Positions 24,391-27,073 of a stretch of DNA of 64,000 bases are shown one piece after another (within the stretch, counting starts at the first letter, position 1; the number at the start of each line of letters is the position of its first letter). The translations under genes and the position numbers were made by a program. The notes below the pieces were generated by a model. That model worked only from the letters and a program-made list of their open reading frames with translations, searched no databases and had not been told where the DNA came from. The stretch comes from an uncultured Pelagibacteraceae bacterium (GTDB lineage: Bacteria > Pseudomonadota > Alphaproteobacteria > Pelagibacterales > Pelagibacteraceae): assembly GCA_902552185.1 (NCBI GenBank), contig CACDFZ010000001.1:1-64000 (forward strand). The letters are read 5' to 3'.

Positions 24391-25056
24391 ATGCCAAAAA
24401 AGAAAAAAACTAGAAAAGTCAAAAAAGCAAAAAAAACAAAAAACTTGTTAGCTAAAAAAAAATCTAAAGTAGAAGATAAATCAAAAAAACAGACGAGCTT
24501 AAATCAAGAAGATAAACCAGAAATAAAGAAGATTAAAAAACAAGCTACTGAAAAAAAACAATATAATATTAAAGATTTTGTTGTATATCCTAAGCATGGT
24601 GTCGGAAAAATTATTGCTGTTGAAAAAGCTAAAATTGGACAAATTGAAATTCAATTTTATAAAATTTTCATAGAAAAAGAAAAGCTGACTTTGACAGTAC
24701 CAATTAATCAACAGTCAAATCTTAGACCCATATCTTCTATTAACCAAATAAATAAGTGCGTTTCTATATTAAAAACTAAACCAAAAATTAAAAGAACGAT
24801 GTGGAGCAGAAGAGCTCAGGAATATGATCAAAAAATTAATTCTGGTAAAATTTATGAGCTAGCAGAAGTGGTTAAAGATTTAAATAAAAATACTGACATA
24901 ATTGCTGATCAATCTTATTCTGAAAGACAATTATTTGAAAAGGCTTATGATAGACTTAAATCAGAATTTGAAGCAGTTTTAAAAACTACTCCTGAAGAAG
25001 CGCAAAAAAAGATGGATAAGGCCCTTGGTAGAAACAAAAATTTACTTGAAGATTAA
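24391..25056 (+). CDS. CarD-family transcriptional regulator with Lys-rich N-terminal extension
   Basis: 221 aa; CarD core DFVVYPKHGVGKIIAVEK...; ~55 residue KKKK-rich N-terminal tail. Confidence 0.92.
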   Translation: MPKKKKTRKVKKAKKTKNLLAKKKSKVEDKSKKQTSLNQEDKPEIKKIKKQATEKKQYNIKDFVVYPKHGVGKIIAVEKAKIGQIEIQFYKIFIEKEKLTLTVPINQQSNLRPISSINQINKCVSILKTKPKIKRTMWSRRAQEYDQKINSGKIYELAEVVKDLNKNTDIIADQSYSERQLFEKAYDRLKSEFEAVLKTTPEEAQKKMDKALGRNKNLLED

Positions 25057-25063
25057 AAAATAG

Positions 25064-25097
25064 AAACGCCCTTTTTAACAAATTAAAAAGGGCGTTT
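25064..25097. terminator. convergent (bidirectional) intrinsic terminator
   Basis: Perfect 15-bp stem AAACGCCCTTTTTAA/TTAAAAAGGGCGTTT with 4-nt loop, between carD (+) and a tiny ORF (-). Confidence 0.85.
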
Positions 25098-25121
25098 AAT
25101 TAACAAAGAATGTAGAAGGTA

Positions 25122-25187
25122 CTATCTTCTTCTTCTTCTTCTTTTTTTAGCTTTTTTCTTTTTAGCTTTTTTTCTTCTTTTAGCCAT
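25122..25187 (-). CDS. 21-aa Lys/Arg peptide (MAKRRKKAKKKKAKKRRRRRR)
   Basis: Manual reverse translation; strong Shine-Dalgarno AGGGAG 6 nt upstream; TTGACA box upstream at 25260-25265 (-); terminator downstream. Confidence 0.6.
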   Translation of the reverse strand: MAKRRKKAKKKKAKKRRRRRR

Positions 25188-25259
25188 CTTATCTCCCTGG
25201 TTATTAAACAAATCTTAATGATTCGTTTGTTAATTAAACATTAATTATTAAAAGATTCA

Positions 25260-25265
25260 TGTCAA
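25260..25265 (-). promoter_or_regulatory. candidate -35 box for the small Lys/Arg transcript
   Basis: Minus-strand TTGACA followed by AT-rich sequence; -10 is poorly defined (AATGTT at 17-bp spacing). Confidence 0.4.
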
Positions 25266-25396: not shown

Positions 25397-27073
25397 TTAG
25401 TAAAGATTTTCTAGTTGTTGTTTATAATTTTTTATTATTTCTTTTCTTTTTAACTTTAAAGTTGGTGTAAGCATTCCGTTTTCAATTGTAAATTCTTCGT
25501 TAATTAATACAAATTTCTTAATTTTTTCTATTAAAGTTAAACTTTTATTTATATTTTCAATTATAAGTTTAATTTTCTCTTTACTTATTTCTTTTTCACT
25601 AACAATTAATGCAACTAAATAATTTTTTTTATCTCCATAAACAAAAGATTGTTTAATATTTTCATTCAAACATAAAATATTTTCAACTTTACTCGGAGAA
25701 ATATTATCGCCGCCAAGATTAACAATAATATCCTTTTTTCTATCAGTAATTTTTAAATAATTGTTTTTATCCAATTCACCTATATCTCCAGTATGAAGCC
25801 ATCCATCTTTAATTACTTTTTTAGTCTCCTCTTCCAAATTCCAATATCCCAGCATAACATTTTCACCTTTAATAAGGATTTCTCCATCTTCAGCAATTTT
25901 GACTTTATTGGTTCTAAACGGAGGACCAACTGATTCGACTTTAACTAAATCTGGTAAATTACAACTAACTACTGGCGAGGCTTCGGTTAAGCCATATCCC
26001 TGAAGAGTAGGCAATCCAACAGCGTTTAAAAATTCTCCAATATTTTGATCCAAAGCTCCTCCCCCAGATACGAAGGCCTGAAGATTACCGCCAAATTGGT
26101 TTCTGATTTTTCTTCTCACTAATTTTTCACATAGAAAATTTACGATTTTTTCACCTAATTTTAAATCTACTTTGTTCAGTATTTTTTTTCCCAAAATCAA
26201 AGTTTGATTAATAAGTTTTCTTTTTAATCCTAATTGCTTTTCAAAATTCATATTTATCTTCGTAAAAAGGTTTTGATAAAATCTTGGAACAGCTGTCATG
26301 ATTGTAGGTTTAGCAACTGCCATGTTAGAAATCAGTTTTTCTAAGCTTTCAGCGTAAAAAATTTTTGCACCAACTATAATTTGTATAAATTGTACTGTGT
26401 GTTCATAGGAATGGGAAAGGGGTAGCCAGGTTAAAAAAATAGGATCCTTTTTATCTGTCAATTTTTTTAATAATTCAACAGCGCCCTCGCAATTTGATAA
26501 GATGCCTCCATGACTTAAAACTACACCTTTAGGATTTCCTGATGTGCCTGAGGTATAAATTATACAAGCGGGCATATTTCTTATTAGATTTTTGTTAATG
26601 ATTTTTTTATCAATATTATTGACGAAAATTTCAGAGATTAATAAGCTTTCTCTATCAATTTTTTCAAATGATATTATTTTCTTAACATCACTATTTATAA
26701 ACTTTTTAATTTTATCAAATTGAACTTGATTAGAGACAAATATTAAAGAGGGTTTACAATCATTTAATATGTATTCGTAATCACTTGCTGAGTAAGTTGT
26801 AAAAATAGGAACAGAGATCCCCCCTGCATTCATAATTGAGATATCGCTAATTAACCAATATGGTCTGTTCTCAGATAAAATCAGACATCTATCGCCCTCA
26901 TTAATTAAAGATTTGATCTTTAAAGTAAGTTTAAAAATTTTTTGAGTTATATCTCCCCAATTATAAGTTGGATTGTCTGATTTTAACCATTTTAAAAATG
27001 GTTTTTTTTCATCAAACTCTTCTGCTTTTTTAAAATATAATTCAACTAAACTATTTATTTTACTAATATCCAT
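25397..27073 (-). CDS. AMP-dependent synthetase/long-chain acyl-CoA synthetase
   Basis: 558 aa; IIYTSGTSGNPKGVVLSH, GYGLTEASPV, HTGDIGELD, DRKKDIIVNLGGDNISP. Confidence 0.93.
   Translation of the reverse strand: MDISKINSLVELYFKKAEEFDEKKPFLKWLKSDNPTYNWGDITQKIFKLTLKIKSLINEGDRCLILSENRPYWLISDISIMNAGGISVPIFTTYSASDYEYILNDCKPSLIFVSNQVQFDKIKKFINSDVKKIISFEKIDRESLLISEIFVNNIDKKIINKNLIRNMPACIIYTSGTSGNPKGVVLSHGGILSNCEGAVELLKKLTDKKDPIFLTWLPLSHSYEHTVQFIQIIVGAKIFYAESLEKLISNMAVAKPTIMTAVPRFYQNLFTKINMNFEKQLGLKRKLINQTLILGKKILNKVDLKLGEKIVNFLCEKLVRRKIRNQFGGNLQAFVSGGGALDQNIGEFLNAVGLPTLQGYGLTEASPVVSCNLPDLVKVESVGPPFRTNKVKIAEDGEILIKGENVMLGYWNLEEETKKVIKDGWLHTGDIGELDKNNYLKITDRKKDIIVNLGGDNISPSKVENILCLNENIKQSFVYGDKKNYLVALIVSEKEISKEKIKLIIENINKSLTLIEKIKKFVLINEEFTIENGMLTPTLKLKRKEIIKNYKQQLENLY

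Follow-up and report, generated by a model that had tools for sequence, protein, structure and literature searches.

The stretch of DNA analysed here (the window) comprises 64,000 nucleotides from the genome of an uncultured Pelagibacteraceae bacterium. On its minus strand lies a very small gene that converges on carD (24391..25056, plus strand), which encodes a protein with CarD_TRCF_RID and CarD_C domains and served as our synteny anchor. Upstream, on the same strand as the mini-gene, an acyl-CoA synthetase-like gene (25397..27073, minus strand) is the neighbour found in the window's family. The mini-gene opens with a -35 box, TTGACA (25260..25265, minus strand), of which TTGAC is invariant across the aligned sequences of the window's genus (g1), followed after a 16-nt spacer by a putative -10 box, TAATGT (25238..25243, minus strand), a weak match (3/6) whose TAaNG columns are conserved in the g1 alignment. 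Close to the presumed transcript start there is a conserved 9-bp leader hairpin, AAACGAATC-ATTAA-GATTTGTTT (25206..25228, minus strand), which contains the motif CGAATCA (25225-25219). A Shine-Dalgarno (SD) sequence, GGGAG (25193..25197, minus strand), lies within CCAGGGAGATAAG directly 5' of the ATG (25187-25185). The open reading frame (ORF) of 66 bases (25122..25187, minus strand) ends with TAG and encodes the 21-amino-acid peptide MAKRRKKAKKKKAKKRRRRRR, in which 9 of the 21 residues are Lys, 8 Arg and 3 Ala (computed pI 12.0, 2.77 kDa).

The unit closes with an intrinsic terminator (25064..25097, minus strand) formed by a perfect 15-bp stem with a GGGCG/CGCCC base and followed by CTATTTTTTA. 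It is the sole terminator-like site within 24.5-25.8 kb, where 0.1 would be expected, and being palindromic it may also serve carD in a bidirectional manner. An earlier note on this DNA had described the TTGACA box, the SD, the ORF, the perfect 15-bp hairpin and the convergence on carD, all of which we recovered at the same coordinates; the leader hairpin is not among the features it lists. It had also ascribed a Lys-rich tail to the carD product; the Lys-rich stretch is real but sits in an N-terminal extension instead. Such long, Lys-rich, low-complexity N-terminal extensions are found in SAR11 CarD proteins, and versions with Ala/Pro-Lys repeats occur in a few other alphaproteobacteria as well (window 24391-24560; loci L073-L096, L102, L105 and L124). 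The extension is shorter in the genera with the shortest mini-protein, a parallel that may or may not reflect a connection.

A peptide of such low complexity escapes BLAST, so the gene was located in other genomes through CarD, which was detected in 96 of 121 related genomes; loci were taken across the order. Of 95 Pelagibacterales loci, 93 contain the Lys/Arg-rich ORF in intact form, convergent to carD and preceded by a strong SD; the remaining two, L017 and L070, are truncated by contig ends, and the 93 are all loci with enough flank. They span six genera of the window's family plus a sister family. A further set of 81 loci (80 from named genomes, e.g., PRT-SC02, HIMB058 and MED-G40, and in part from the same genomes as before) had the ORF in 74 cases; seven were truncated by contig ends, and none had lost it. 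The 26 alphaproteobacterial loci from outside the order, two of them cut early by contig ends, showed no Lys-rich ORF downstream of carD. Since the feature is conserved, it lies far beyond chance. The earlier note's view of an independent small gene is confirmed by an ORF that is intact at all uncut Pelagibacterales loci examined: in the other SAR11 genomes, SD, start, frame and K/R content persist with synonymous changes, and copies with a frameshift or a lost ATG or SD beside a retained terminator, which that note had named as evidence against its reading, were looked for and were absent from every genome with an uncut locus. The acyl-CoA synthetase had no match beside the mini-gene at the sister-family loci examined, so the mini-gene stays with carD and looks like its own unit. 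Judged from these sequences, all sampled Pelagibacterales (SAR11) share it as a protein-coding gene.

Selection on the codons was assessed in close copies of equal length. These show 45 distinct single-base codon differences, comprising 32 synonymous changes, 12 Lys-Arg exchanges and one other change (Pro-Ser), whereas a model of random mutation in these codons gives expected shares of 19% for synonymous changes, 10% for Lys-Arg exchanges and 57% for other changes or stops. The synonymous excess (p = 7e-14) and the shortage of other changes (p = 2e-15) carry approximate p-values, as differences were counted as independent events and frames were picked as open, but the synonymous excess is too large to be affected. 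Furthermore, length changes within the ORF in the g1 alignment are all whole codons, and the flanks vary freely. By this pattern of change, the ORF is a genuine protein gene under coding selection.

The region upstream of the ORF is conserved as well. TTGACA/T occurs in all clades, 38-42 nt 5' of CGAATC, and the pattern TTGACN{28,45}CGAATCAN{15,45}GGRRG was found in 210 of 248 genomes of the order, with one site per genome in the window's family; a reversed-pattern control gave near zero matches, and outside the order the leader pattern yielded scattered unrelated matches only. A purine-rich SD of the GGGAG kind is kept in all genera, at a slightly shifted position in some. The pattern search also picked up another conserved locus, in which TTGACTATATATAGTAGTTCAGGTCTCATAGTTATATTACGAATCAAAAACTCC precedes a G run (G073:C2:86606-86671; the same in other sister-family genomes). 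CGAATCA, nearly invariant order-wide, opens the leader hairpin, which folds in almost every leader. Its 3' arm reads GATTTGTTT in the window's genus, GATTCGTT in g7, (G)TGATTC in the sister family, TAAGTGA in g8 and g9, and TATGTGA in g6. Compensatory base-pair changes occur in g6, g8 and g9 (U-A to A-U and A-U to G-C; 98% of helix cells paired); in the other clades covariation is weak, with its score reached by 25 of 500 shuffles. The leader RNA thus appears to be under selection too. The transcript likely starts just before the leader hairpin, which would fit a stabilising 5' stem-loop. SAR11 promoters have been mapped in a Red Sea transcription-start-site study.

Several other elements were noted around the leader. 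In sister-family leaders (L053-L069), the SD is directly adjoined by a further small hairpin, CCC-AAAT-GGG, which reads CGC-AAAT-GCG in L066; within L085-L096, ACTCC...GGAG can pair in g9, as can GCTCC...GGAG in g6. A role of these structures in translational control is possible. The idea that TTAA-N7-TTAAC, immediately 5' of the leader hairpin, is a CtrA box was set aside, as its spacing is not kept in the g1 alignment. GAATC, contained in CGAATC, is an instance of GANTC, the target of CcrM-type methylases. An N6_N4_Mtase gene was present in all eight SAR11 genomes tested, and the RAMA domain of CcrM-like enzymes was found in the one protein scanned in full. Cell-cycle control through the GANTC site within 25219-25225 is possible. 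GANTC is under-represented in the window, with 113 occurrences versus 179 expected from base composition, though other 5-base palindromes of like composition also fall below 179.

The length of the encoded protein differs between clades. It measures 20-24 amino acids in the window's genus (g1), 22-23 in g10, 23-35 in the Pelagibacter-type genus g7, 31 in g8, 36-38 in g6, 34-58 in g9 and 40-99 in the sister family. In genome G126, a form of 29 amino acids is predicted at 410512-410601. In a tree of CarD, the sister family is split from the window's family, which falls into three clades (g7; g8, g6 and g9; g10 and g1), and ORF lengths group by clade. The sister-family gene occupies the same position, has promoter, leader motif, SD and orientation in common with the window gene and encodes MEELKVIFAKARKKAKKKAAPKKKRKAAKRKPAKKKAAPKKKK..., a typical histone-H1/AlgP-like tail (given as FAKARKKAKKKAAPKKK... 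/ MEELKVIFAKARKKAKKKAAPKKKRKAAKRK...). Its FAKARKKAKKK segment aligns with MAKRRKKAKKK of the window peptide, from which the sister-family N terminus MEELKVI is absent. Intermediate versions with APAKK/KPAAKK repeats occur in g9, within the window's own family. The sister-family proteins contain 50% Lys, 25% Ala, 9% Arg and 7% Pro, and those of the window's genus 49% Lys, 34% Arg, 15% Ala and no Pro. A Lys/Ala/Pro-rich, H1-like composition is therefore found in the sister family and g9 and in part in g1. Differences in repeat number change the length both order-wide (20-99 amino acids) and within the sister family. The long Lys-Ala-Pro protein at the same locus lends support to the earlier description of the 21-mer as a minimal histone-H1/AlgP-like tail.

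From position, the shared leader and about 10 low-complexity residues, a basis that lies beyond confirmation by profile search, we infer that the 21-mer is homologous to the long proteins. Since Pro-Ala-Lys repeats occur on both sides of the deep split between the two families, the simplest account would be a longer H1-like ancestor with later shortening, a putative direction of change. A query of 10 genomes with the sister-family protein matched the sister family's own locus and nothing else, and no second H1-like gene was found by this search, whose reach is limited by low complexity.

Searches of Pfam and NCBIfam found no family for the window peptide (E up to 1) or its longer relatives (E up to 10), and none of them matched a profile of the Hc1, Hc2 or AlgP type. 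We therefore describe the peptide as H1-like in its working and do not file it in a named family. No PDB chain matches the 21-mer, and the only weak match of an 85-mer relative, the eukaryotic protein L29 (E 0.52), is most likely compositional. Rfam returned nothing at the gathering score and nothing credible among sub-threshold matches. In the openly accessible literature, to which our search was confined, no account of the mini-gene was found, and the main text of a paper on Pelagibacter structured RNAs mentions neither carD nor the gap adjacent to it. H1-like tails are a known kind of protein; what is new here is a tail-only gene of about 20 residues kept across an order.

Among known systems, the C-terminal KPAA-repeat domain of Pseudomonas AlgP/PhaF is a disordered Lys/Ala/Pro H1-like tail, and Lys-Ala-Pro repeats are likewise found in the SAR11 sister family and g9. 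In AlgP, whose H1-like tail binds DNA, a 124-amino-acid helical N-terminal domain precedes a 154-amino-acid repeat (PMC9239181), whereas the SAR11 proteins consist of the tail alone; the window version has just 21 residues, lacks Pro and is Arg-rich. Hc2 of Chlamydia and BpH1 of Bordetella are, like the SAR11 proteins, stand-alone H1-like basic proteins whose length varies by repeat number, and Hc2 binds both DNA and RNA (PMC2848022). They are considerably longer, with pentamer repeats (Hc2, 165-237 amino acids; BpH1, 182-206; PMC2848022), than the 20-99 residues in SAR11, where no profile match is detectable. Protamines and other short Arg-rich peptides that condense DNA are comparable to the window peptide in size and charge density, and its C terminus has a similar Arg run; they are eukaryotic and differ in residue pattern.

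Taken as a whole, the locus is best explained, and we think quite likely, as a SAR11-wide gene, forming its own unit, for a tail-only, H1-like polycation that binds nucleic acids and has a role in the nucleoid. The mini-gene would be transcribed alone from its predicted sigma-70-type promoter into an mRNA of roughly 170 nt that begins at or close to the stem-loop, has a strong SD and runs to the intrinsic terminator. The product, probably a miniature DNA/RNA-coating protein, would be a histone-H1/AlgP/Hc2-like tail lacking a folded domain, expected to bind the phosphate backbone of DNA, and probably of RNA, electrostatically and without sequence preference. Charge neutralisation of this type would aid compaction or organisation of the nucleoid in a cell that is very small. 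Shortening of the protein to 20-35 residues would have taken place in Pelagibacter and the window's genus, with longer Lys-Ala-Pro repeat forms kept in related clades.

A small ribosome-associated basic protein that threads into rRNA and stabilises the ribosome is an unlikely alternative. Tiny ribosomal proteins are typically short, polybasic and universal, and their genes typically combine a strong SD with an isolated promoter, all of which applies to the mini-gene order-wide, and bTHX, bS22 and bL37 resemble the SAR11 peptide in size and basicity. However, these proteins have a fixed length and a recognisable sequence, whereas the SAR11 proteins range from 20 to 99 residues by repeat number and match neither a ribosomal family in Pfam or NCBIfam nor, for the 21-mer, a PDB chain, the L29 hit being probably compositional. 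Length that varies while charge stays constant argues for a disordered polyelectrolyte instead.

Somewhat less probable again is a protein whose main ligand is not DNA but RNA or polyphosphate, and which would serve as a condensing counter-ion or modulate translation. AlgP associates with polyphosphate granules (PMC9239181), Hc2 has a higher affinity for RNA than Hc1 and represses translation (PMC2848022), and the leader hairpin could permit self-binding and autoregulation. A Lys/Arg 21-mer would bind any polyanion, so that the true target could be rRNA, mRNA or polyphosphate; no sequence feature distinguishes between these targets, which makes this explanation a variant of the nucleoid reading.

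The earlier note had also considered that the RNA is the functional molecule. A small RNA with an incidental or secondary ORF could account for the CGAATCA hairpin conserved order-wide, with compensatory changes in some clades, but it sits poorly with the strong codon-level selection, the whole-codon indels and ORFs of up to 99 codons in relatives. A 14-bp pairing of the two transcript ends in the window was rejected because, by eye, it is not conserved in the g1 alignment, and Rfam offered no match above threshold. RNA-only function thus appears largely refuted and very improbable; it is not needed where selection acts on codons, even with a leader RNA hairpin that is also conserved. An attenuator leader peptide sensing charged tRNA, suggested by Lys/Arg codons followed by a terminator hairpin, is excluded for practical purposes by gene order, as no gene follows the terminator on the same strand and the next gene, carD, is convergent, and by relatives that encode up to 99 residues.

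Returning to the H1-like polycation, SAR11 bacteria rank among the ocean's most abundant cells and are considered to have highly streamlined genomes. The mini-gene keeps its place in all uncut genomes examined and is very likely important, although it is probably below the length that gene finders accept and its product is nearly invisible to trypsin-based proteomics. A further-reaching proposal, which we put forward tentatively and at slightly less than even chances, is that SAR11 universally encodes a "chromatin-tail" microprotein, reduced in some lineages to about 20 residues of near-pure Lys/Arg; it would be protamine-like, among the smallest nucleoid proteins known, translated from an mRNA with a conserved stem-loop, and overlooked in annotation because of its small size. 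The series from 20 to 99 amino acids offers natural length variants for probing the role of the tail, and, if DNA/RNA compaction is its true function, the mini-gene would show how little sequence an H1-like function needs.
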